Below are positions 1 through 62,841 of a stretch of 64,000 nt of DNA, piece by piece (position 1 is the stretch's first letter; every line of letters starts with the position of its first letter). The translations under genes and the position numbers were made by a program. The notes beneath the pieces were generated by a model, which saw nothing but the letters and a program-made list of their open reading frames with translations, had not been told where the DNA came from and searched no databases. Source of the DNA: Actinomycetospora sp. NBRC 106378 (GTDB taxonomy: Bacteria > Actinomycetota > Actinomycetes > Mycobacteriales > Pseudonocardiaceae); contig NZ_BSTT01000007.1 in NCBI RefSeq assembly GCF_030269685.1, positions 124,001 through 188,000 of the forward strand. Reading direction: 5' to 3'.

Positions 1-637
1 CGAGCGCCACCAGCACGAACGGCACGAAGACCGCGAGCACGGGGGTCTGCCGCCCGACGACGGCGCCGAGGACGTCCTCGGACAGGCCGGTGACCTGCGC
101 GAGCGTCGTGATCGGGACCGCGATGGCGCCGAAGGCGACCGGAGCGGTGTTGGCAACGAGAGCGACGACGGCGGCCTTGAGCGGCTTGAAATCGACCGCC
201 ATCAACATGACGGTGCAGATCGCGACCGGAGCCCCGAACCCGGCCAGCGCCTCGAGCAGCGCCCCGAAGGCGAAGGCGATGATGATGGCCTGCACCCGCT
301 GGTCGTCGGAGACGGAGCTGAAGGAGCGCCGCAGGACGTCGAAGTGCCCGGTGCGCACCGTCATCCGGTAGATCCACAGGGCGTTGATGACGATCCAGAG
401 GATCGGGAAGAACCCGAACACGGCGCCCTCGGTGCCGGCGAGCACCGCCTGGCCGACCGGCATCGCGTAGACGAGCACCGCGACCAGCAGCGAGACCACG
501 AGGGCGATGATCGACGCGAGCCACGCCCGCACCCGGAGGCCGCCGAGCAGGACGAACAGGACGAGGAGCGGGAGGGCCGCCACCAACGAGCTCCAGGCCA
601 GGGACCCGAGTACCGGCGCGTACTGCTGCACGTACAT
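1..637 (-). CDS. lldP: L-lactate permease, LctP/LldP family (C-terminus cut by window edge)
   Basis: Encodes the first 212 residues of a lactate permease, an inner-membrane carrier importing L-lactate or glycolate with protons. The visible part begins MYVQQYAPVLGSLAWSS and contains several hydrophobic helices and the family signature GALLEALAGFGAPVAI, followed by VALVANTAPVAFGAIAVP. The ATG start (635-637) is preceded by a GAGGAG ribosome site (complement of 646-652) at 8-base spacing. The gene is divergent from the peptide transporter that starts at about 773, so the two share a 135-base control region. The family is usually 500-560 residues long, so more than half lies outside the window. 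Family assignment is firm; substrate (lactate or glycolate) is inferred. Confidence 0.88.
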   Translation of the reverse strand, partial: MYVQQYAPVLGSLAWSSLVAALPLLVLFVLLGGLRVRAWLASIIALVVSLLVAVLVYAMPVGQAVLAGTEGAVFGFFPILWIVINALWIYRMTVRTGHFDVLRRSFSSVSDDQRVQAIIIAFAFGALLEALAGFGAPVAICTVMLMAVDFKPLKAAVVALVANTAPVAFGAIAVPITTLAQVTGLSEDVLGAVVGRQTPVLAVFVPFVLVAL

Positions 638-772
638 GGCTGATGACTCCTCGTCGTCGAGTTGCCGTGCCTAGTACCCCATCCGGGGTGGAACACTCCA
701 CATGGAATTCACGGGACGGAATGTCGCCCGGCCACTGGTGCGGACCTCTCAGGTTTGTCACAGTGTCCGTTC

Positions 773-2308
773 GTGACCATCACCCCTGGTAACCCCGACG
801 ATCCGAAGGCGGTCGATCCCGCCGACGGAGGCGTGACGACGGCCGACACCCCCGACCCCGGCCAGGACTTCTCCGCCGACCGCCGCTTCTTCGGCCATCC
901 GCTCGCGCTCGCGAACCTGTTCTCGGTGGAGCTGTGGGAGCGGTTCAGCTTCTACGGGATGCAGGCCGTCATGGCCTACTACCTCTACACGCAGGTGGCC
1001 GAGGGCGGGCTGGGCCTGCCGAAGGAGGCCGCGACCAGCATCATCGGCGCCTACGGCGGGATGGTGTACCTCGCCTGCGTCGGCGGGGCGTGGATCGCCG
1101 ACCGGGTGCTCGGCGCCGAGCGGACCCTGTTCTTCTCCGCGTGCACGGTGATGCTCGGCCACATCGCGCTGGCCCTGATCCCGGGCCTCGGCGGCGTCGT
1201 GGTCGGCCTCATCCTGGTCGCGCTCGGCTCGGGCGGGGTGAAGACCTCCGCGACGTCCGTGGTCGGTTCGCTGTACCGCCGCGACGACCCCCGGGCCGAC
1301 GCCGGGTTCTCGATCTTCTACATGGGCGTCAACATCGGCGCGCTGGTCGGGCCGCTGTTGACCGGTCTCGCGCAGACCACGATCGGCTTCCACTGGGCAT
1401 TCGGTCTCGCCGCGATCGGCATGGCGCTCGGCCTCGGTATCTACGTCACGGGCCGCAAGAACCTCCCGGCCACCGCGAACGTGGTCCCGACGCCGCTCAC
1501 GCCGGGGGCCTGGCAGCGGCCGGTCGGCATCGTCGTGGCGGCCGTCGTCGTCATCGTCGTGCTGTTCGTGGTCGGCGTGCTGACCGCGGAGAACCTGTCG
1601 ACCGCGGTGGCGATCGTGGTGGCGGTCATCGCGATCGCGCTGTTCACGACGCTGCTCCGGAGCCCGAAGGTCACGGCGGACGAGCGTTCGCGCACCCGGG
1701 CCTACATCCCGATGTGGCTCGCCAGCGTCGTGTTCTGGTCGCTGTTCCAGCAGCAGTTCACGGTGGTGACCCTCTACACCGACGAGCGCCTCGACCGGAT
1801 GCTCGGCGGCTGGGAGATGCCGATCGCGTGGGTGAACTCCCTCGAGCCGTTCTTCGTCATCGTCCTCGCACCGCTGTTCGCGGTGCTGTGGACCCGACTG
1901 GGCGAGCGGGCTCCGTCGACGCCGGTCAAGTTCGCGATCGGCGCGGGCGGTATGGGGGTGGCGTTCCTGCTCTTCCTGCCCTGGGCGGGCGGTACCGGCA
2001 ACACGACCCCGGTGCTCGCGATCGTGCTGATCATGCTCGTGTTCGCGCTGGCCGAGATGAACCTGTCGCCCGTGGGGCTGTCGCTCTCGACCCGGATCGG
2101 GCCGGAGGCGTTCCGGTCGCAGTCGGTGGCGCTGTTCTACCTGTCGGTCTCGCTCGGCTCGACGCTCGCGGGCACCATGGCGGGCTTCTACGACCCGTCG
2201 ACGGAGGGCACGTACTTCTCGGTCATCGGGATCGCGGCCCTCGTCCTCGGCGGGGTGCTGCTCGCTCTCGCGCCGTGGGTGAAGCGGGCGATGCGCGGCG
2301 TGCGCTGA
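773..2308 (+). CDS. POT/PTR family proton-dependent di/tripeptide transporter
   Basis: A 511-residue member of the proton-dependent oligopeptide transporter family (DtpT type), importing di- and tripeptides. Evidence is the PTR2 signature ELWERFSFYGMQAVMAYYLY early in the protein, which holds the ExxER proton-coupling motif, then about 14 hydrophobic helices with the conserved segment FSIFYMGVNIGALVGPLL. The start is uncertain. GTG at 773 is chosen; GTG at 833 directly behind a GGAGG would remove 20 residues without touching helix 1, and an ATG at 662 would run back into the promoter and ribosome site of the divergent lactate permease. It is followed by two palindromic repeats and a convergent metallopeptidase gene, so it is probably monocistronic. 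Confidence 0.88.
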   Translation: MTITPGNPDDPKAVDPADGGVTTADTPDPGQDFSADRRFFGHPLALANLFSVELWERFSFYGMQAVMAYYLYTQVAEGGLGLPKEAATSIIGAYGGMVYLACVGGAWIADRVLGAERTLFFSACTVMLGHIALALIPGLGGVVVGLILVALGSGGVKTSATSVVGSLYRRDDPRADAGFSIFYMGVNIGALVGPLLTGLAQTTIGFHWAFGLAAIGMALGLGIYVTGRKNLPATANVVPTPLTPGAWQRPVGIVVAAVVVIVVLFVVGVLTAENLSTAVAIVVAVIAIALFTTLLRSPKVTADERSRTRAYIPMWLASVVFWSLFQQQFTVVTLYTDERLDRMLGGWEMPIAWVNSLEPFFVIVLAPLFAVLWTRLGERAPSTPVKFAIGAGGMGVAFLLFLPWAGGTGNTTPVLAIVLIMLVFALAEMNLSPVGLSLSTRIGPEAFRSQSVALFYLSVSLGSTLAGTMAGFYDPSTEGTYFSVIGIAALVLGGVLLALAPWVKRAMRGVR

Positions 2309-2316
2309 CCTGCTCC

Positions 2317-2377
2317 CCGAGGTGCACGTGGGGCAGGTCCGGGCGCTCTGGAACCTGCTCCACGTGTCCCTCGCGGG
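2317..2377. repeat. Palindromic intergenic element, family A, copy 1
   Basis: An imperfect inverted repeat of about 60 bases with outer arms CGAGGTGCACGTGG and CCACGTGTCCCTCGCGGG. It is the first of a pair in the convergent gap between the peptide transporter and the metallopeptidase. The same element occurs as pairs in the gaps at about 27.4 and 51.5 kb. It can form a hairpin and may serve as a bidirectional terminator. Confidence 0.7.
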
Positions 2378-2397
2378 CGCCTGGCCCGTTGCTCCGG

Positions 2398-2461
2398 TCG
2401 CGAGGGTGACCTCAGACAGGTCGACGGGCCGCCCGCCCTGCCTGGTGTGCCCCTCGCGGGA
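2398..2461. repeat. Palindromic intergenic element, family A, copy 2
   Basis: Second member of the pair, 20 bases after the first. Arms are CGCGAGGGTGACCTCAGACAGG and CCTGCCTGGTGTGCCCCTCG. It ends four bases before the stop codon of the convergent metallopeptidase gene. Confidence 0.7.
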
Positions 2462-2464
2462 GGC

Positions 2465-3478
2465 TCAGAGCGCATTCGTCGAGAACGTGTCGCAGCGGGT
2501 CGGGTCGCCACCGGTGTAGCCGGTGGTCAGCCAGCGCTTGCGCTGGTCGGACGACCCGTGGGTGAAGGTGTCCGGGTTGACGGTGCCGCCCCCGAGCTTG
2601 CCCTGGATGTAGTCGTCGCCGATGCGCTGGGCGGCGTCGACGGCGGATCCGAGGTCGGCCGGCGTGATGTCCTCGATGAGGGCGGGCCGACCGGCCGCCG
2701 GCTGGCTCGCGTGGTTCATCCACACCCCGGCGTAGCAGTCGGCCTGCAGCTCGAGGCGCACCGAGTCCGACGTCGCGCCCTGCCGGGACCGCACCTTCGC
2801 CTCGGTGCCGAGCTGGGCCTGCACGTGGTGGCCGTACTCGTGGGCGAGCACGTAGGCGTTCACGAGCGGCCCACCCTGCGCGCCGAACTGCTGCTGGAGC
2901 TGGTCGTAGAAGCTCAGGTCGATGTAGACCAGGTTGTCGCCCGGGCAGTAGAACGGGCCCGCGCTGGAGTCGGCCGACCCGCAGGCGGTGCGCACCGAGC
3001 CGGTGAAGAAGGTCGTGTCGACCCGCTCGTAGGTCGGTTGCGCGCCCCGCACCGCCGACGCCGCCCGCGCGTAGCCGCCGCCCGCCCAGTACGCCTGGAT
3101 CGAGTTGATGTCGGCGACGATCGCGCAGTCCAGCTTCGTGTTGGCGTCCCGCCCGGTGCGGCACTCGCTCGCCAGGTCGCTCGTGCCGACCCGGCCCGGG
3201 CCGCCGGGGTCGCCGAACCCGCCGGCGACGCCGGTCGTCATCCCGGATCCGCCCCCGAGGAACTGCACCGCGAGGAACCCGATCACGGCGACGACGATGA
3301 CACCGAGGCTCGCCTTGCCGCCGCGGCCCCGGAGGAGCAGGCCGAGGACCAGCGCGATCAGCCCGCCACCACCGCCGCCGCCCCCACCGAGGCCTCCGAA
3401 GCCTCCGGAGCCCCCGGACGAGCCCCGCTGGTCGGTGACCTCGGACGCGTCGAGCTGGGCGTCGTCGTCGTAGCGCAT
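2465..3478 (-). CDS. Membrane-anchored neutral zinc metallopeptidase (YpfJ/COG2321 family)
   Basis: A 337-residue predicted zinc protease. It begins MRYDDDAQLDASEVTDQRG, then a glycine-rich stretch, one transmembrane helix at about residues 70-90 (LGVIVVAVIGFLAVQFLGGG), and an extracytoplasmic catalytic domain with HEYGHH at residues 213-218 giving the HExxH zinc site. Downstream RLELQADCYAGVWMNHASQP supplies the likely third ligand region, as in the YpfJ family. The ATG at 3478 has a GGAGG ribosome site 8 bases upstream; the frame stays open further upstream without family-like sequence. Substrates are unknown. The gene is convergent with the peptide transporter across a repeat pair. Confidence 0.88.
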   Translation of the reverse strand: MRYDDDAQLDASEVTDQRGSSGGSGGFGGLGGGGGGGGGLIALVLGLLLRGRGGKASLGVIVVAVIGFLAVQFLGGGSGMTTGVAGGFGDPGGPGRVGTSDLASECRTGRDANTKLDCAIVADINSIQAYWAGGGYARAASAVRGAQPTYERVDTTFFTGSVRTACGSADSSAGPFYCPGDNLVYIDLSFYDQLQQQFGAQGGPLVNAYVLAHEYGHHVQAQLGTEAKVRSRQGATSDSVRLELQADCYAGVWMNHASQPAAGRPALIEDITPADLGSAVDAAQRIGDDYIQGKLGGGTVNPDTFTHGSSDQRKRWLTTGYTGGDPTRCDTFSTNAL

Positions 3479-8094: not shown

Positions 8095-10311
8095 GTGGAG
8101 ACGATGACGCCCGCCGTCGACGGCCGCACGAGCACGCAGCTCGCCATCTCCGGGATGACGTGCGCCTCGTGCGCGATGCGCATCGAGAAGAAGCTCAACC
8201 GCCTCGAGGGCGTCACCGCGAGCGTCAACTACGCCACGGAGAACGCGCACGTCGACCACCCGGCGGGGATGGCGACGGACACGCTGGTCGAGACCGTCGA
8301 GAAGCTCGGCTACGGCGCGACCCCGCCGGCGACGCGCGAGGAGCCCGCATCCGGGGAGTCCGACGGCTCCGACCCCGAGGTCGACGCGCTCCGTCACCGC
8401 GTGCTGGTCAGCGCGGCGCTCTCGGTGCCCGTCGTGGCGCTCGCGATGGTCCCCGCCTGGCAGTTCGTCGACTGGCAGTGGATCTCCCTGGTGCTGGCCG
8501 CTCCCGTCGTCGTCTGGGGTGGGTGGCGCTTCCACCGGGCCGCGGCGGTGAACCTGCGCCACGGCACGGCGACGATGGACACCCTGATCTCGGTCGGCAC
8601 GCTCGCCGCCCTGCTGTGGTCGGTCTGGGCGCTGCTGTTCGGGGACGCCGGCATGCCGGGCATGACCCACGAACTCTCCTTCACCGCCGACCCGGGCGAC
8701 GCGATCTACCTCGAGACCGCGGCCGCCGTCACCACGTTCGTGCTCGCCGGCCGCTTCTTCGAGGCCCGCGCCAGGCGGCGGGCCGGCGCCGCGCTACGCG
8801 CCCTGCTGGACCTGGGCGCCAAGGACGTCGCGCTGCTCACCGAGGACGGCGAGCAGCGCGTCCCGGTGGAGCGGCTCGTCGTCGGGAACCAGTTCGTGGT
8901 CCGCCCGGGCGAACGGGTCGCGACCGACGGCGTCGTCGTCTCCGGGGTCGGCGCGGTCGACGCGAGCACCGTGACCGGGGAGTCGGTGCCGGTCGAGGTG
9001 TCGCCCGGCTCCGAGGTGGTCGGGGGCTGCGTCGCCGTCGGGTCGCGGCTGGTGGTGCGCGCGACGCGGGTCGGCGCGGACACCCAGCTCGCGCGCATCG
9101 CGGCGCGGGTGGCCGACGCGCAGAACGGCAAGGCTGCGATCCAGCGGCTGGCCGACCGGGTGTCGGGCGTGTTCGTGCCCGTCGTGATCGCGGTCGCCGT
9201 GCTCACCTTCGTGGGCTGGCTCGTGGTCCCGGGCGACGTGAGCGGGGCCTTCACCGCCGCCGTCGCCGTCCTCATCATCGCCTGCCCGTGCGCGCTCGGC
9301 CTGGCCACGCCGACGGCCCTGATGGTCGGCACCGGCCGGGGCGCACAGCTCGGCATCCTGCTGCGTGGCCCGGAGGTGTTGGAGTCCACCCGGCGCGTCG
9401 ACACCGTGGTCCTCGACAAGACCGGCACCCTCACCACGGGGCGGATGCGGCTGGTCGGGGACGTGGAGGACACCGCGCTCCGGTACGCCGCGGCGGTCGA
9501 GGACGGGTCCACCCACCCGATCGCGCGGGCGATCGCGGAGGCGGGCCGGCGCGCGGGGGCGCTGCCCGCCGCGACCGACGCACGGACGATCGACGGACTG
9601 GGGGTGAGCGGGACGGTGGACGGCGTGGACGTGCTCGTCGGCCGGCCCGCGCTGCTGGCCGAGCGGGGGATGCCCCTCACCGCCGCACTCACCGCCGACC
9701 TCGAGGCCGCGCAGGCCGACGGGGCCACCGCCGTCGTCGTCGGCTGGGACGGCACGGCGCGGGCCGTGCTCGCGGTGGCCGACACCGTCCGGGAGACCTC
9801 GGCCGACGCGGTGCGCGCGCTGCGCGACCTCGGCGTACGGCCCGTGCTGCTCACCGGCGACCACGAGGCGGCCGCCCGGGCCGTGGCGGCGAGCGTGGGC
9901 ATCGACGACGTCCGCGCCGGGGTGCTGCCGGAGGGGAAGGCCGACGCGGTCGCCGCACTGCAGGCCGAGGGGCACACGGTGGCGATGGTGGGAGACGGCG
10001 TGAACGACGCCGCTGCGCTCGCCCGGGCCGACCTCGGGCTCGCCATGGGTGCGGGCACGGACGTGGCGATCGAGGCGGGCGACGTGACGCTGGTCCGCGA
10101 GGACCTGCGCGCGGTGCCCGACGCGCTGCGCCTCGCCCGCCGCACCCTCGCGACGATCCGCGGCAACCTGTTCTGGGCGTTCGCCTACAACGTGGCCGCC
10201 CTCCCGCTGGCCGCGTCCGGTCTGCTCAACCCCATGATCGCGGGCGCCGCGATGGCGTTCTCCAGCGTGTTCGTCGTGGGCAACAGCCTGCGGCTGCGGC
10301 GGTTCCGGTGA
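8095..10311 (+). CDS. copA: Copper-exporting P1B-type ATPase CopA
   Basis: A 738-residue heavy-metal ATPase that pumps Cu(I) out of the cytoplasm. An N-terminal metal-binding domain carries GMTCASC (Cys23 and Cys26), followed by eight membrane helices. The translocation motif CPC is at residues 397-399 (IIACPCALGLATPTA), the phosphorylated Asp441 is in DKTGTLT, and a hinge motif GDGVNDAAALA and the HP motif (GSTHPIA) are present. GTG 8095 or ATG 8104 may start it. It is divergent from csoR. Its stop codon overlaps the GTG of nuoA (GTGA at 10308-10311), so translation of the following complex-I-like genes is probably coupled to it. This linkage is unusual. Confidence 0.95.
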   Translation: METMTPAVDGRTSTQLAISGMTCASCAMRIEKKLNRLEGVTASVNYATENAHVDHPAGMATDTLVETVEKLGYGATPPATREEPASGESDGSDPEVDALRHRVLVSAALSVPVVALAMVPAWQFVDWQWISLVLAAPVVVWGGWRFHRAAAVNLRHGTATMDTLISVGTLAALLWSVWALLFGDAGMPGMTHELSFTADPGDAIYLETAAAVTTFVLAGRFFEARARRRAGAALRALLDLGAKDVALLTEDGEQRVPVERLVVGNQFVVRPGERVATDGVVVSGVGAVDASTVTGESVPVEVSPGSEVVGGCVAVGSRLVVRATRVGADTQLARIAARVADAQNGKAAIQRLADRVSGVFVPVVIAVAVLTFVGWLVVPGDVSGAFTAAVAVLIIACPCALGLATPTALMVGTGRGAQLGILLRGPEVLESTRRVDTVVLDKTGTLTTGRMRLVGDVEDTALRYAAAVEDGSTHPIARAIAEAGRRAGALPAATDARTIDGLGVSGTVDGVDVLVGRPALLAERGMPLTAALTADLEAAQADGATAVVVGWDGTARAVLAVADTVRETSADAVRALRDLGVRPVLLTGDHEAAARAVAASVGIDDVRAGVLPEGKADAVAALQAEGHTVAMVGDGVNDAAALARADLGLAMGAGTDVAIEAGDVTLVREDLRAVPDALRLARRTLATIRGNLFWAFAYNVAALPLAASGLLNPMIAGAAMAFSSVFVVGNSLRLRRFR

Positions 10312-10667
10312 GCCCCTTCGTGGCGCTGGCCGTCGTCGGCGGGGCCGCCCTGGTCGGGGTCGGGCTGGTCGTCGCCGTGTCGTGGACGCTGCGGGCGACC
10401 CGCGGGCGGCGGCGTCCCCTCGTCGCCGCCCCGCACGCGGGCGGGATGCCGGTGGTCGAGCACGCCGTGTCCCGCTGGCACGTCCGCTGGCCGACCCTCG
10501 CGCTGGTCTTCCTGGCCTTCGACATGGAGATGCTCTTCATGTACCCGTGGACGCTCGTCGTCGCGCGGACCGGCACCGGTGCCGCGGTCGAGATGTTCGT
10601 CTTCCTCGCGGTCCTGCTCGTCGGGGTCGGCTACGCCTGGCGGGAGGGCGCCTTCCGGTGGTCCTGA
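10308..10667 (+). CDS. nuoA: NuoA-like subunit of a truncated complex-I module
   Basis: A 119-residue three-helix membrane protein homologous to NuoA/ND3. It retains the hallmark FLAFDMEMLFMYPW (conserved FD.E and PW) in the loop and second helix. In complex I this subunit lies next to the quinone site. GTG 10308 overlaps the copA stop by four bases, and the 3' end overlaps the next gene by 10 bases, so these genes are expressed as one unit. Confidence 0.88.
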   Translation: MSPFVALAVVGGAALVGVGLVVAVSWTLRATRGRRRPLVAAPHAGGMPVVEHAVSRWHVRWPTLALVFLAFDMEMLFMYPWTLVVARTGTGAAVEMFVFLAVLLVGVGYAWREGAFRWS

Positions 10668-11653
10668 CCTCCGTCGTCGCGCGTCGCCCGCACGTCCTGA
10701 CGGTCGCGCCCGCGACCGTGGACGCCGGGCTGCGTACGGCCGTCGAGGCGGAGCTCGCCCGCCGCCGCTGGCCTGCGGCGTCCTCCCCCGCCGACACCGA
10801 CGTGGTGCTCGTGCTCGGCACACCGGGGCCGAGGCTCGCCGACGTGGTCCGGTCGGTGTGGGCGACGGTCCCGGCGCCCCGGGCGCTGGTGGGAGTCCCG
10901 ACGGAGGTCGCGCTCCGGTCGGTGCTCGACGAGGCGGCGGCGGGGCTGGTCGCGTCGCGTGGCAGGACGTCGTTGCTGTCGGCCAGTGACAGCAACGACG
11001 TCCTGCCACAGGAGGTGGGCGAGCCCCAGATGGCCGACCTCGCCTTCTACGACCACGACGGGCTCGCCCTCGACGCGCTGCACGTGGCGGTCGGGCCGGT
11101 CCTCCCCCACTGGCCGGCCGGTCTCGTGGCGCACGTGACCCTGGCCGGGGACCTGATCACCGACGCGCGGGCCGAGGTGCTCGACGTGCCGGCCAGCGTC
11201 GGCCCCGGCAGCCGCGGGCGGTCCCCGCTCGGCCCGGACCGGACGCGGCTCGACATCCTCACCCGGGTCCTCGGTCTCCTCGGCGCCGACCACCTCGCCG
11301 CCCGGGCCCGGCAGTTGCGCGACCGCGACCCGGAGCCCGGCGAGCTCACCACCTTCGGGCGGCGGCTGCGGCGGAACCGGCCGCTGCGCTGGGCCCTCCG
11401 GGACGTCCCGCTCGTCGGCGGGCCGGTCGAGGAACGGACGCTCGAGGAGCGGGTCGCGAACCTCGCGGGCGCGCTGGGCGGCAGCCTCCCGCCCCCGGTG
11501 CGGCCGACCGCCGAGAAGGCCGTGCAGGCGATGGTCGGGCTCGAGCTCGGCGCCGCCCGGCTCGCCCTCGCCGCGATGGACCCCGACACCGCCCTCGGCG
11601 CCGGCCCGGTCACCGCCTTCACCCCGGCGGAGGTGGCCCATCAGCATCACTGA
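10658..11653 (+). CDS. Degenerate NuoB/NuoD-like protein of the truncated complex-I module
   Basis: A 331-residue soluble protein at the position where nuoB, C and D normally lie. Residues about 15-85, with DTDVVLVLGTPGPRLADVVR and WATVPAPRALVGVP, follow the pattern of NuoB (a 'DLMIVAGTVT...MPEPRWVI'-like stretch) but show no cysteine able to hold cluster N2. Residues about 125-180 (ALHVAVGPVLPHWPAGLVAH and LITDARAEVLD) resemble the start of NuoD. Between them residues 101-118 are encoded by a perfect 51-base palindrome. My reading is a NuoB-NuoD fusion that lost redox function but may keep a structural role. The relationship is inferred from position and motif shape and needs structure comparison. 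Confidence 0.6.
   Translation: MVLTSVVARRPHVLTVAPATVDAGLRTAVEAELARRRWPAASSPADTDVVLVLGTPGPRLADVVRSVWATVPAPRALVGVPTEVALRSVLDEAAAGLVASRGRTSLLSASDSNDVLPQEVGEPQMADLAFYDHDGLALDALHVAVGPVLPHWPAGLVAHVTLAGDLITDARAEVLDVPASVGPGSRGRSPLGPDRTRLDILTRVLGLLGADHLAARARQLRDRDPEPGELTTFGRRLRRNRPLRWALRDVPLVGGPVEERTLEERVANLAGALGGSLPPPVRPTAEKAVQAMVGLELGAARLALAAMDPDTALGAGPVTAFTPAEVAHQHH
10959..11009. repeat. Perfect 51-bp palindrome inside coding sequence (family B relative)
   Basis: Two 22-base arms, GTGGCAGGACGTCGTTGCTG plus TC and its exact complement, flank the 7-base loop GGCCAGT. The 51 bases equal 17 codons and are read in frame as a linker (SLLSASDSNDVLPQ). One arm matches the 46-bp element found at 60496, 62505 and 62796. 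Confidence 0.85.
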
Positions 11654-11663
11654 GCTGGTCGAG

Positions 11664-12560
11664 TTGGTCCTCCTCGCCCCCGCCCTGGTCGTCGTCGCCG
11701 GGCTGGCGGCGGCCGCCGGCGCCGCCACGGCCGGCGAGGGGCCGACCGCACCCGTCGTCGAGACCCTGCGCCTGCTGACCAAGCAGCGCCGCCGCACCCT
11801 CTCCGACGACCCCGCCCTCGCCCGGATCGGCCTGACCGCGCTCCCGGTCGCCGCCGTGCTCGCGCTCGCCGTCGTCCCGCTCGGTGACCGGGCGCCGGTC
11901 GACCTCGGCGTCGGGGTCGTGTGGTTCAACGCGATGGAGGTCGTCGCCTGGTTCGCGGTGTGGGTGGTCGGCTGGGGACCGAACGCGGCCACGAGCCTCG
12001 CCGGCGGGTACCGCGTCCTCCCGCTGGGACTCGCCTACGAGCTGCCGCACATGCTCGCGATCATCACCCCGGCGATCGCCGCGGGCTCGCTGTCCCCCGG
12101 GGTCATCGCCGCCGCCCAGCACGACCTCTGGTACGCCGTGTGGATGCCGGCGGCCTTCCTGCTCTACCTGCTCTCGGTCGCCGCCATGGCCTTCTGGGGC
12201 CCGTTCGCCGCGCCGCTGGGCCGCGACCTCGCGGGCGGTGCCGCCGCCGAGCACGCCGGGCTGGACCGGCTGCTCCTGCTCGCCGGGCGCTGGATGCTCC
12301 TCACGGCGGCCGCGGCGATGGCGGTGCCGCTCTTCCTCGGCGGCGGGGCGCCGCCGCCGATCACCGGGCCCGACCCGTTCCCCGGGCTGCCCGTGCTGTG
12401 GTTCGCGGTCAAGCTCGTCGTCGTGCTCGGGCTGCTCCTCGCCCTACGGCGCGCCGTGCCGATGCTGCGGATGGCCCGGTTCGCCACCCTCGCGTGGACC
12501 GTCCTCATCCCCCTCGCCGTGGCGCAGGCGCTCGTCGTCACCGTGGTGGTCCTCCCGTGA
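11664..12560 (+). CDS. nuoH: NuoH-like subunit with altered quinone-site loop
   Basis: A roughly 298-residue multi-helix membrane protein in the NuoH position. GWGPNAATSLAGGYRVLPLG and AYELPHMLAIITP align with the conserved NuoH loop and helix containing YE(V/L)P. However, the acidic loop normally reading ETNRAPFDLPEAE is replaced by AMAFWGPFAAPLGRDLAGG, so the glutamates that line the quinone channel are missing. Start is uncertain: TTG 11664 is used, while a GGAGG at 11629-11633 would better suit an ATC or CTG start between 11640 and 11655. It overlaps nuoJ by GTGA at its end. Confidence 0.8.
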   Translation: MVLLAPALVVVAGLAAAAGAATAGEGPTAPVVETLRLLTKQRRRTLSDDPALARIGLTALPVAAVLALAVVPLGDRAPVDLGVGVVWFNAMEVVAWFAVWVVGWGPNAATSLAGGYRVLPLGLAYELPHMLAIITPAIAAGSLSPGVIAAAQHDLWYAVWMPAAFLLYLLSVAAMAFWGPFAAPLGRDLAGGAAAEHAGLDRLLLLAGRWMLLTAAAAMAVPLFLGGGAPPPITGPDPFPGLPVLWFAVKLVVVLGLLLALRRAVPMLRMARFATLAWTVLIPLAVAQALVVTVVVLP

Positions 12561-19761: not shown

Positions 19762-20763
19762 GTGATCACTGCCTTCGGCGCCGACTTCGACGTCGAGCCC
19801 GGGTACCTGAACACGCCGTCGGTCGGCATCCCGCCACGGCACGTGGTCGACGCCGTCCGCTCCTGGGTCGACGACTGGGCCGCGGGCCGCATCTCCGCCC
19901 CCGCGATGGACGGCCCGGTCGACGTGACCCGCGCCGCCTTCGCGGCCCTCACCGGCTTCCCGACGACGGACGTGGCGGTCGGGTCGGTCGTCTCCGGACT
20001 GCTCGGGCCGGTCGCCGCGTCGTTCCCCGCGGGCACGCGCGTGCTCACGGCGGCCGGCGAGTTCACCAGCGTGAGCTTCCCGTTCGCCGCCTGCGGGCAC
20101 GAGGTCACCGAGGTCCCGGTCGCCGCGGTCGGCGAGCGCGCGGGCGACCACGACGTCGTCGCCGTCAGCGTCGCGCAGTCCGCCGACGGCACCCTGGTCG
20201 ACCTCGACGCCCTGCGCGGGTCGGGGGCCGTCGTCGTGCTGGACGCGACGCAGTCGCTGGGCTGGCTGCCGGCGGACCTGTCCTGGGCCGACGTCGTCGT
20301 CGCGGGCGGGTACAAGTGGCTGCTCTCGCCCCGCGGCTGCGCGTGGGGGGCGTTCTCCGCGCGGGCCCTGGAGCGGGTGACGCCGAGCGCGGCGGGGTGG
20401 TACGCGGGCGAGGACCGGTGGGACGCGGTCTACGGCCTCCCGCTCCGGCTGGCCGGGACGGCCCGTCGCCTGGACGTCTCCCCCGCCTGGTCGGCCTTCG
20501 CAGGTGCGGCCGTCGCCCTGCCGTGGCTGGCCGGGCTCGACCGGGCCGCCGTGCACGCGCACGGCGTCCGGCTCGCGGACCGCCTCCGCACGGCCCTCGA
20601 CCTCCCGCCGTCGTCGAGCCCGATCGTCTCGATCCCGGGCGACCCGCAGCGCCTGCTCGACGCCGGTGTGCGCTGCGCCGCCCGGGCCGGCGCCACGCGG
20701 GTCGGCCTCCACCTGCACAACACCGACGCCGACGTCGACCTCGTGCTGGACGCCCTGAGATAG
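19762..20763 (+). CDS. Class V aminotransferase-fold PLP enzyme (EgtE/kynureninase-like)
   Basis: A 333-residue fold-type I PLP enzyme. The cofactor lysine is in ADVVVAGGYKWLLSPRGCAW, and VVLDATQSLGWLPADL gives the aspartate and glutamine that bind the cofactor. The N-terminal EPGYLNTPSVGIPP is typical of the kynureninase/cysteine-desulfurase/EgtE group. Relatives include EgtE, the lyase of ergothioneine synthesis, but no other egt gene is seen nearby, so substrate is open. It is 17 bases downstream of a long hairpin's partner region and is probably a single-gene transcript. Confidence 0.78.
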   Translation: MITAFGADFDVEPGYLNTPSVGIPPRHVVDAVRSWVDDWAAGRISAPAMDGPVDVTRAAFAALTGFPTTDVAVGSVVSGLLGPVAASFPAGTRVLTAAGEFTSVSFPFAACGHEVTEVPVAAVGERAGDHDVVAVSVAQSADGTLVDLDALRGSGAVVVLDATQSLGWLPADLSWADVVVAGGYKWLLSPRGCAWGAFSARALERVTPSAAGWYAGEDRWDAVYGLPLRLAGTARRLDVSPAWSAFAGAAVALPWLAGLDRAAVHAHGVRLADRLRTALDLPPSSSPIVSIPGDPQRLLDAGVRCAARAGATRVGLHLHNTDADVDLVLDALR

Positions 20764-27373: not shown

Positions 27374-27385
27374 CCCGATCCGCGA

Positions 27386-27447
27386 CCGCGAGGTGCACGC
27401 CAGGCAGCCCTGGGAGCCCGCGAACCTGCCTGATGTCACCCTCGCGG
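27386..27447. repeat. Palindromic intergenic element, family A, copy 3
   Basis: Arms CGCGAGGTGCACGCCAGGCA and CCTGCCTGATGTCACCCTCG. It lies in the convergent gap between the Pro-rich protein and ureD, 12 bases past the former's stop. Confidence 0.8.
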
Positions 27448-27498
27448 CACGGCCGGCACGAAGAACCGGGACAACCGGCCCCGGCCGGGCCGATCCGC

Positions 27499-27560
27499 CC
27501 GCGAGGTGCACGCCAGGCAGCCCCGGGAGCCCGCGAACCTGCCTGATGTCACCCTCGCGG
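27499..27560. repeat. Palindromic intergenic element, family A, copy 4
   Basis: Near-identical to copy 3. The duplicated unit (about 105-113 bases) also includes a copy of the last codons of the upstream gene (GGCACGaAGAACCGGGACAA), so this pair arose by tandem duplication. Confidence 0.8.
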
Positions 27561-27573
27561 CACGGCCGGCAGG

Positions 27574-29685: not shown

Positions 29686-30852
29686 CTACGGCAGAGGGCC
29701 GGTGAAGGTCGCGGCTTCGAGGACGAACCCGGGGCGCACGTCGACCTGGAGGTCACCGGTCTCGACGGGCACGCTGAACCCGACGGTGTACGTCGTGCTC
29801 TTCCCCGGCTGGACCGACGTGCTCGGCGGGAGGCCGATCTTCTTGGGGATGTCGACGATCGAGGTCGCCTCCTGGCCACCGACCGACGCACTGGTGATCG
29901 CCGTGGCGGGCTGGAAGACCTCGTTCGTGCCGTTCTGGATGGTGACCTTGACCTGGACGTTCTTGACGCCGTCCGCGCCCGCGGCCGAGGACGACGGCGA
30001 GAAGGCCGTCGGCGCTGCCACAGTGACCTGGAGGCCGTTGGGATACGAGATCGGCGTGCCGAACGCCGCGGTGTTGCTCGCCGGGGCCTCCGACCCGCTC
30101 GCCGGTGCCGACACGTTCGGCGAACCCGCGACCGGTGCGAGGTCGTTCACGGCGCTCGTGAAGGCGGCGGCATAGATGATGCAGATCAACAGACCGAGTG
30201 CCGAGACGACGAGCCCCGCGATCGACATCCCGCGTCCGCCGCGGGAGCGAGAACGGACCAGGCCGATACCGGCGAGAATCAGACCGATGATCACCAGCGG
30301 CCACGCGATCACCCCGATGAAGGGGATGAAGGAGAGGATCAATCCGATCAGCCCGACGACGAAGCCGGCCGTCGCGAGCCCGTTGCCGCCACTCGACGTG
30401 GGTGCCGCGGGCGTCGCAGCGGGAGCCGGTCCGCTTGCGGGACCGGACCCGTATCCGGCCGGTGCCCCGAAGCCCTGCTGCTGGCCGTACTGGCCGTACC
30501 CCTGCTGCTGGCCGAAGGTGTGCTGGCCGTAGCCCTGCTGGCCGTAGCCCTGCTGGCCGTAGCCCTGCTGGCCGTAGCCCTGCTGGCCATAGCCCTGCTG
30601 GCCATAGCCCTGCTGGCCATAGCCCTGCTGGCCATAGCCCTGCTGGCCATAGCCCTGCTGGCCATAGCCCTGCTGCTGGCCGTACCCCTGCTGCCCGTGG
30701 TCGCCGGAGCCGTGTCGTCCGCCGTAGCCCTGCTGCGGGCCGTCGTGATCGGGCCCGGCTGCTCCGGCGTCGCTCGACGGCCTCCAGGCCTGCTGCCCCT
30801 CGCGCTCCGAGCCCCCATGGCGACTGCGTGACGCGTCCATCGGATCGGTCAT
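29686..30852 (-). CDS. DUF4190/DUF4352-type membrane protein with GYGQQ-repeat N-terminus
   Basis: A 388-residue protein in three parts. Residues 1-130 are a low-complexity, prion-like segment dominated by QQGYG repeats. Residues 155-240 hold helices [40 protein letters not shown] and [20 protein letters not shown], typical of DUF4190. Residues 270-388 are an extracytoplasmic beta domain of the DUF4352/TelA-like type ([20 protein letters not shown]). ATG 30852 has a GGGACG-like ribosome site. It interrupts the urease cluster between ogt and ureF but shows no link to urease. Its role may be envelope-associated; unknown. Confidence 0.78.
30526..30675. repeat. Minisatellite: ten tandem 15-bp units
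   Basis: Ten consecutive copies of GCC(G/A)TAGCCCTGCTG. The first four have G and the last six A at the fourth position, showing two waves of expansion. On the minus strand each unit encodes QQGYG, so copy-number change keeps the frame. Confidence 0.95.
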
Positions 30853-37341: not shown

Positions 37342-37359
37342 ACCCGTCGTCGGGAAGGG
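37342..37359. repeat. 18-bp recurrent motif (copy upstream of the GNAT gene)
   Basis: ACCCGTCGTCGGGAAGGG lies 13 bases before GTG 37373 and is identical to 43206-43223. Its core CCCG-N4-CGGG can form only a short hairpin. Confidence 0.6.
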
Positions 37360-51415: not shown

Positions 51416-51429
51416 CGGCCGCCGCCGCT

Positions 51430-51491
51430 CCGCGAGAGCTACACCAGGCAGGATCCGAGCCTCCGGAACCTGCCTGGCGTGCACCTCGCGG
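51430..51491. repeat. Palindromic intergenic element, family A, copy 5
   Basis: Arms CGCGAGAGCTACACCAGGCA and CCTGCCTGGCGTGCACCTCG. It begins 14 bases past the treY stop in the convergent gap with the ferric-reductase-like gene. Confidence 0.8.
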
Positions 51492-51534
51492 AGGGTTCGG
51501 ACGGGGCCGGGCAGGTCGGGCCCGCTGGGCCGTT

Positions 51535-51595
51535 GGCGAGGGTCACACCAGGCGGGGATCACCGGTCCGGGACCTGCCTGGCGTGCACCTCGCGG
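51535..51595. repeat. Palindromic intergenic element, family A, copy 6
   Basis: Arms GGCGAGGGTCACACCAGGCG and CCTGCCTGGCGTGCACCTCG. It ends two bases before the stop codon of the convergent gene. Confidence 0.8.
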
Positions 51596-60484: not shown

Positions 60485-60495
60485 CCCCCGCCCTC

Positions 60496-60541
60496 GTGGC
60501 AGGAAAGCGTCGTTGCTGTCATCCGGTGGGGGGTTCCGCCG
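60496..60541. repeat. 46-bp dispersed element, family B, copy 1
   Basis: GTGGCAGGAAAGCGTCGTTG followed by CTGTCATCCGGTGG and a shorter arm. It lies in the convergent gap between treZ and acs. Confidence 0.75.
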
Positions 60542-60560
60542 CATCGTCAGGCGCGCACCG

Positions 60561-62483: not shown

Positions 62484-62504
62484 CCCCCGTCGTGTTCCCC
62501 CCTC

Positions 62505-62550
62505 GCGGCAGGAACGCGTCGTTGCTGGCGTCCAGTGGGAGGAAACCCAC
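62505..62550. repeat. 46-bp dispersed element, family B, copy 2
   Basis: GCGGCAGGAACGCGTCGTTG then CTGGCGTCCAGTGGGAGG. It lies between acs and the 70-aa gene, in the same orientation as copy 1. Confidence 0.78.
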
Positions 62551-62558
62551 ACCGTGGA

Positions 62559-62771
62559 TCAGTCCGGCGGGTCGTCGATGAGCTCGTCCAGCGTGACGAA
62601 CAGCGGTTCGCCCCGCTCCCGGGCCCGAGCGGCGGCGCGCCGGGCGGCGGCCGCGATCCGGGCCAGTTCGTCGGCGCCGACCACCCGGGTCTGCACGACC
62701 TCACCCGACTCGTCGGTCAGCGTGACGGCGACCAGGCCGGTCTCGCGCTCCTCCGAGAACGACAGCGGCAT
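62559..62771 (-). CDS. Hypothetical protein, 70 aa
   Basis: Starts MPLSFSEERETGLVAVTLTD. The first 30 residues look like a small beta sheet (VTLTDESGEVVQTRVV) and the rest is an Ala/Arg-rich helix followed by EPLFVTLDELIDDPPD. No family recognised. It is bracketed on both sides by family B repeats, one 8 bases after its stop and one 25 bases before its start. Confidence 0.6.
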   Translation of the reverse strand: MPLSFSEERETGLVAVTLTDESGEVVQTRVVGADELARIAAAARRAAARARERGEPLFVTLDELIDDPPD

Positions 62772-62795
62772 GGCTCCACCCTAGGTGCCGACGAT

Positions 62796-62841
62796 GTGGC
62801 TTCCCTGCCACTGGATGCAGGCAACGACGCTTTCCTGCCAC
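62796..62841. repeat. 46-bp dispersed element, family B, copy 3 (inverted)
   Basis: Complement reads GTGGCAGGAAAGCGTCGTTG then CCTGCATCCAGTGGCAGG. It is opposite in orientation to copies 1 and 2 and directly abuts the stop codon of the MalY-type gene. Confidence 0.78.

Follow-up and report, generated by a model that had tools for sequence, protein, structure and literature searches.

Introduction

Short palindromic sequences that recur throughout a bacterial genome have been described under several names, and in-frame insertions of such palindromes are known from Rickettsia and from some REP-rich bacteria (PMC10969869, PMC3733652). The Rickettsia palindromic elements (RPE) are given a length of about 150 bp (PMC10969869). 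The CGTC-tagged REP superfamily, as treated by Di Nocera et al. (2013, PMC3733652), has a stem of 8-9 bp, a loop of 4-5 nt and a CCA tail; its members lie mostly at the 3' ends of genes, less than 20 bp from convergent ORFs and as inverted dimers, while their intragenic copies encode 20-30 amino acids, with no dedicated transposase known (PMC3733652). The five phyla listed for these repeats do not include Actinobacteria (PMC3733652). The GTAG REP/REPIN sequences, finally, are characterized there as short palindromes, often arranged as inverted doublets, which are extragenic and lie 3' of genes (PMC3733652). In the open-licence PMC literature, we found no description of such a family in Actinomycetospora, nor of coding REPs in Actinobacteria.

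A perfect palindrome within a NuoB-like gene

The locus considered here lies in a 64-kb stretch of an Actinomycetospora genome (the window, by which we mean the whole stretch analysed; the genome is designated G000 and those compared with it G001, G002 and so forth). An inverted-repeat search recovered two arms of 22 nt each, 100% complementary and separated by a 7-nt loop (Table 1), which bears out the original prediction of a 51-bp palindrome with two exact 22-base arms and a 7-base loop. Among the perfect inverted repeats of the window with an arm of at least 13 nt and a loop of at most 20, it is the longest, the runners-up having arms of 16 and 14. When hairpins were sought in the window together with a 400-kb segment of this genome, 26 were recovered, as against 1 in codon-shuffled sequence. 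The segment 10949-11019 folds with a z-score of -10.7 as RNA and of -9.0 as DNA. The palindrome is real and far above chance. At the gathering score, Rfam has no match on the element, the sole match of the window lying elsewhere; sub-threshold Rfam matches to seven loci of the element were mainly to microRNA hairpins (13/17).

Table 1. Coordinates and strand of the palindrome, its host gene, the adjacent genes and the further family members in the window
Feature	Position	Strand
Perfect palindrome, a short-arm member of the dispersed family, read as protein on + within RGRTSLLSASDSNDVLPQ	10959..11009	.
Left arm GTGGCAGGACGTCGTTGCTGTC, with copies elsewhere in the genome	10959..10980	+
Loop, 7 nt	10981..10987	.
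Right arm, exact reverse complement of the left arm	10988..11009	-
Host gene, ~331 aa, weak NuoB-like N-terminal part, C-terminal part called NuoD-like by the original prediction only; palindrome in a length-variable linker	10658..11653	+
Upstream gene NuoA (PF00507)	10308..10667	+
Downstream gene NuoH (PF00146)	11664..12560	+
Asymmetric family member, between convergent genes, stop codon 11 nt away on either side	60495..60550	+
Asymmetric family member, between tandem genes	62504..62559	+
Asymmetric family member, between tandem genes	62786..62841	-

The palindrome had been described as lying in frame over 17 codons; it does indeed lie inside an open gene, but codon 10958-10960 (CGT) contributes only its last two bases to the 51 nt and codon 11009-11011 (CAG) only its first, which brings the number of codons touched to 18. 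The placement at a junction of NuoB-like and NuoD-like modules likewise stands in part: the NuoB-like label is weakly backed by matches to the profiles 2fug_6 (E 1.5e-4, profile positions 39-77) and TIGR01957 (E 0.002), whereas the searches of the host protein returned no match for the NuoD-like label.

The fused protein is present in 18/61 genomes. Our linker alignment has 18 sequences from 17 of these 18 genomes (G001 contributes two, and G026, where the gene is cut by a contig end, is omitted), and in all 18, four of which come from other genera, the junction is read through without a stop. Against a benchmark in which the top codon-shuffle score in any species was 13, a strong inverted repeat (score 16-30) occurs in 5/18 linkers, namely those of G000, G002, G016, G014 and G009, while the score is at most 11 in 13/18, including those of the other genera G022, G027, G030 and G051. 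The five palindromes are unlike one another: those of G000 and G002 are built as arm, loop and arm, that of G016 is degenerate, and G014 and G009 have two facing asymmetric halves. Conservation of the inserted peptide in distant orthologues, which the original prediction had named as the mark of ordinary coding sequence, is not what we found: outside the circle of close relatives another sequence, often rich in His, Asp and Gly, forms the linker. Since 13 of the 18 stop-free orthologues have no strong palindrome, the fusion antedates the element, and the suggestion that the palindrome may mark how two genes became fused does not hold, as relatives without it carry the same fused protein.

Two further features of this protein may be recorded here. 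A Met stands ahead of the C-terminal part (MADLA...DRDGL) in 17/18 of the orthologue sequences; and the His/Asp/Gly-rich linker of other species could, judging from its composition, serve in metal binding or contain an internal start.

Sequence, architecture and distribution of the hairpin family

The arm of the palindrome belongs to a dispersed family, as predicted; it is, however, both arms that match the family and not one alone. The window genome has 130 exact half-sites of the form GGCAGGA-N0..8-CGTCGTTGCTGTC, as against 0 for the reversed control. The usual arm of the family is GTGGCAGGAAAGCGTCGTTGCTGTC, of which the window palindrome has a form shorter by 3 nt, and three further copies lie at the far end of the window (Table 1). 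Two architectures can be distinguished: a perfect or near-perfect palindrome (arm, 7-nt loop, arm), and an asymmetric copy whose second half reads GTGGCAGGAAnGCCnCATCGTCG. The palindromic form measures 57 nt, or 54 or 51 nt with short arms, its length being divisible by three in 47/47 distinct palindromes.

Short arms occur in five palindromes, in both arms in three and in one arm in two; the one-arm short forms look like intermediates. By our own arithmetic, the 3 both-arm 3-nt deletions seen compare with about 0.3 expected were the arms independent. Substitutions in the arms are in 70 cases one-sided, in 3 mirrored and in 3 two-sided but different, and since the changes are mostly one-sided, arm-to-arm copying is a mere possibility and at most occasional. 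Strong arm-to-arm correction by template switching accordingly finds little support, with 3 mirrored substitutions against 70 one-sided ones.

From 44 asymmetric copies we derived a two-hairpin structure, in which the first hairpin has 8 pairs and a 9-nt loop and the second 5 pairs and a 6-nt loop, with a CGTC word on the 3' side of hairpin 2 in the family consensus. Its covariation score is 0.213 versus 0.151 for shuffled alignments (reached in 0/500 shuffles), and slid versions of the structure score at most 0.098. Two of the five pair measures were not clearly above shuffles (two-sided-change pairs, 43/500; further pair types, 169/500), and the drawn structure was not recovered by RNAalifold on the asymmetric copies.

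A covariance model derived from the 44 copies finds matches in 18/18 Actinomycetospora genomes and in 3/43 others, with 3 to at least 96 matches per genome of the genus (96 candidates were scored). Among the matches listed for the 23-base arm against GTDB contigs (at least 60 stretches) are Actinomycetospora soli, A. chiangmaiensis and a single record from Pseudomonas. The half-site of Pseudomonas sp. JUb42, although exact, has no surrounding element and was taken as chance. Half-sites of the G000 type number 130 in G000, 62 in G002, 77 in G016, 12 in G014 and 1 in G006, with 0 in the other 56 genomes.

Placement at the 3' ends of genes

Placement was studied on 106 copies from part of the genome (positions 1-400000 of contig C1, all of contig C7, the regions round the other half-sites among the first 100 of the 130, and the short-arm loci), with genes called by our own codon-usage gene callers. 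Of these copies, 36 are convergent, 46 tandem, 7 divergent and 16 inside genes, with 1 not placed. Given that the intergenic bases of the C1 and C7 stretches are shared 15/54/31% among convergent, tandem and divergent regions, the convergent class is in excess (P 5e-9) and the divergent class in deficit (P 2e-7); coding sequence makes up 90% of the bases but has only the 16 intragenic copies.

The tandem and convergent copies adjoin the ends of genes closely, 72/82 of them lying at most 25 nt from the nearest stop codon, with a median of 12 nt and one overlapping the stop by 28. In the tandem asymmetric copies it is the conserved arm that adjoins the stop (24/28). Outside the arms of 49 palindromes the sequence is C-rich before (about 10 nt, on both sides) and G-rich after, and no T-rich tract was present downstream of these 49. 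Nor did we find a strand bias of G.U over A.C mismatches (14:10 in tandem copies, 4:12 in intragenic ones), a result that lends no support to a role at the RNA level. Half-sites also occur as inverted pairs about 0.7-2 kb apart, at 14 loci of the window genome.

Copies inside genes, read as protein

Among the 16 intragenic copies, the peptides of which were read by eye, 14 share one frame (GRKASLLS..DSNDAFLP), 2 use a second and 0 the third; two of the 14 stand at residues 11 and 27 of called genes and may in fact precede the start of translation. In the 94 readings of the 47 distinct palindromes, frames 1 and 3 are open in 93, and frame 2 in 42. The hosts identified by search are a GGACT-domain protein, an AMP-binding enzyme, a PrmC/MTS-like methyltransferase and an NADH:flavin oxidoreductase; those recognized by reading of the sequence only are a Ser/Thr kinase linker, a biotin carboxylase and arabinosyltransferase-like proteins. 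As a separate observation, a 962-aa called protein at L085 (G000:C4; gene ~96-2981, minus strand) has two family elements in two different frames.

The PrmC-like gene has a match in 25/25 genomes searched, 16 of which were aligned. The insert is present in G000, G014 and, in decayed form, G002, and absent in 13/16 (G001, G004-G006, G008-G013, G015, G040 and G044), where its place is taken by about 5 residues; on this alignment, the PrmC-like copy reads as an insertion relative to most relatives. No target-site duplication is visible at this insert, which also replaces the ~5 residues. The GGACT gene was matched in 13/21 genomes and aligned in 11 (G003 and G004 were left out, and G007 aligned badly): G000 and G002 have the palindrome, G006 a different hairpin, and G001, G005 and G008-G012 a gap. 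Since the family is dispersed, copies are in frame in unrelated genes and the PrmC-like gene has a clean empty site in most aligned relatives, the predicted identity as a coding palindromic insertion like the RPE is supported.

The AMP-binding enzyme differs in that no empty site occurs among the readable sequences (G013, which could not be framed, was left out). G000, G002, G014, G006 (with a private sequence) and G009 all have elements there that are in register and share one reading frame, so that this copy is an older one; G015 has a longer, unlike stretch at the element site.

Turnover in relatives and species-private hairpins

Of the 9 copies on contig C7, 8 could be compared with both flanking genes found, and a family member occurs at 7/8 of these sites in G002 and at 8/8 in G016, the latter count including a head-on pair detected by iterated search alone. 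At one site G002 has an unrelated hairpin, and at one the single palindrome of G000 and G002 corresponds to two facing asymmetric elements in G016. Because these sites are shared among G000, G002 and G016, and no empty site was found in the AMP-binding enzyme, movement within the clade looks rare. More distantly, both comparable intergenic sites of G006 are empty, and one of the two in G009 has other hairpins.

Some relatives have amplified versions of their own. The G006 hairpin has 78 copies in G006 and 0 in 7 other genomes, and occurs at three coding sites which in G000 hold the G000 type: the linker (where the G006 copy is read in another frame than that of G000), the GGACT gene and the AMP-binding enzyme. 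Likewise, the arm of G009 has 34 copies in G009, 10 in G013 and 0 in 7 others, and two of the copies of this private arm are the two halves in the NuoB-like linker. That the same coding sites carry species-private hairpins suggests that copies are homogenized or overwritten within a genome. This raises the prospect of a sequence-specific system in Actinomycetospora that overwrites shared sites, coding linkers and loops included, with each species' own hairpin, i.e., a concerted evolution without RAYT in which linker peptides would change together with the tens to a hundred copies in non-coding sequence. We advance this tentatively, at a little under even chances, its probability being raised by the private G006 version standing in register at a third coding site, that of the AMP-binding enzyme.

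Relationship to described families

The resemblance to RPE, compared by description, lies in the short dispersed palindromes, their in-frame position in unrelated genes and the recurrent encoded peptide (PMC10969869, PMC3733652); in-frame palindromic inserts in unrelated protein genes, the feature that typifies RPE, are what we observe in the 16/106 copies inside genes, 14 of them in one frame and with an empty site. The differences are one of length (51-57 nt here versus ~150 bp in PMC10969869), of host (a high-GC actinobacterium) and of the tight placement of the intergenic copies past stop codons.

With the CGTC REPs, as presented in PMC3733652, the family shares the convergent or tandem placement at 3' ends, the intragenic copies and the lack of any transposase found (Y1_Tnp being the one domain searched for), and it has a CGTC word after the second hairpin. 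Unlike in those repeats, the stems have 8 and 5 pairs, the loops 9 and 6 nt, and the CGTC lies 3' of hairpin 2. Short palindromes, inverted doublets, and an extragenic location 3' of genes are also features of GTAG REP/REPIN (PMC3733652); however, there is no GTAG in the family consensus. A search for Y1_Tnp (PF01797) gave 0/18 genomes of the genus as against 5/14 control genomes, and on account of this absence in 18/18 we reject an identity with RAYT/REPIN.

The likeness extends to intrinsic terminators, in the stable hairpin about 12 nt past the stop codon (72/82 within 25 nt) and the near-symmetric copies between convergent genes. It ends with the lack of a T-rich or U-tract after the palindromes, the C-rich leader outside the arms, the conservation of sequence over more than 100 half-sites and the copies inside genes. 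As for the features of a MITE, no duplication is visible at the PrmC-like insert and no transposase was seen by eye at the 10 half-site loci inspected out of 14. For each of the named families tested, one or more of the defining features are wanting here; the family works like REPs and, inside genes, like RPE.

Other repeats in the window and its genome

Several repeats of other kinds were observed alongside this family. The 13-mer TTCCCGACGACGG occurs in the window at 19957, 25130, 29084 and 33260 (+) and at 37344 and 43208 (-); it has 25 occurrences in 400 kb of C1 and 15 in C7, of which 19/25 and 10/15 are inside genes, and a word containing it tops the repeat list in the stretches of four of five relatives (not G009). 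It may be a word of the Chi, uptake or nucleoid type. Paired copies of a second family of dispersed inverted repeats (CGCGAGGTGCACGCCAGGCAG ... CCTGCCTGGCGTGCACCTCGCGG-like) lie in the window at 2312-2470, 27383-27571 and 51424-51595, and a similar sequence lies beside elements at L005, L031 and L035. Other hairpin families (CAGGTGAGCAC..., ACGAACGG...) are found between convergent genes of the C1 stretch (L163-L182), at 168653, 150214, 176105, 259679 and 395149, and a CAGGTGAGCA-type hairpin occupies a G002 site where G000 has an A-type element. Window positions 30460-30705 hold a 15-nt tandem repeat array with 12 overlapping register copies, which probably codes for a repetitive low-complexity peptide. 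The sole Rfam match of the window at the gathering score is 5_ureB_sRNA (RF02514; 32795-33090, 47.9 bits), which is unexpected in an actinobacterium.

Origin of the palindrome and competing explanations

We consider it probable that what is translated here is a copy of a REP-like hairpin specific to the genus, which is a passenger inside the gene and a transcript-end hairpin at its usual sites, and the copies of which are homogenized. The course of events may be pictured as follows. An ancestral copy would have entered the NuoB-like fusion protein at its pre-existing linker, which tolerates changes of length, and might have survived there because it added a stop-free, polar, linker-like peptide and kept the frame. 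The usual 3' copies would most likely be bidirectional transcript-end hairpins, active in termination or 3'-end protection, while the copy in the gene would be a tolerated neutral passenger, unfolded by ribosomes. A sequence-specific process might then spread or overwrite the copies within one genome.

The strongest rival, though one that we deem rather unlikely, is a selfish miniature element akin to a MITE or REPIN, still mobile and moved by a transposase other than Y1/RAYT, for which the 3' site would be merely harmless. It would account for the in-frame insertions with empty sites in the GGACT and PrmC-like genes, for the species-private amplified versions of G006 and G009 and for the inverted half-site pairs. 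Against it stand the lack of a transposase recognized by eye in the 10 loci inspected of the 14 with such pairs, the absence of Y1_Tnp throughout the 18 genomes of the genus, the orthologous positions largely common to G000, G002 and G016, and a distance of 12 nt past stops which is tighter than harmlessness alone predicts; moreover, the private version of G006 in the AMP-binding enzyme, being in register, looks like overwriting and not like a new insertion.

A regulatory hairpin of the nuo-like operon, retained for pausing or premature termination (attenuation), is distinctly improbable. The great stability of the RNA fold argues for it, as do the strong inverted repeats of differing sequence in the same linker of five genomes (G000, G002, G016, G014 and G009). 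Yet 13 of the 18 linkers have no strong inverted repeat, similar insertions occur in unrelated housekeeping genes, and hairpins that are translated are normally melted by ribosomes. To a protein-binding or uptake-type sequence (for a nucleoid protein, gyrase or competence), spread by selection with the hairpin as a by-product, we assign a slightly smaller probability still. Uptake sequences in other bacteria also occur as inverted pairs at gene ends, and the 23 nt are strongly conserved in many copies. The stems, however, co-vary above shuffled alignments and differ as a whole between species whose sites are kept, for which reasons structure is favoured over a fixed binding word.

The palindrome as the scar of a fusion of NuoB-like and NuoD-like genes, with the element a former terminator between them, draws on the position at the module junction and on the usual place of the element between tandem genes, 12 nt past a stop; it is very improbable, already largely refuted by the same open frame in species and other genera without the palindrome, and as the fusion predates the palindrome we reject it. 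A chance palindrome in ordinary coding sequence has a next to negligible probability, for it runs against the perfect 22-nt arms, the dispersed family and the empty sites, and nothing was found in its favour.

Conclusions

The preferred reading, that of a REP-like hairpin family of the genus with translated copies, bears on questions which this organism is well placed to answer. The Actinomycetospora system offers an empty site, copies with hybrid arms and species-private versions at the same codons. Since the genus is free-living and high in GC, and many of its species have been sequenced, the insertion of such elements, their homogenization and the fate of the peptide that they add are directly testable in it.
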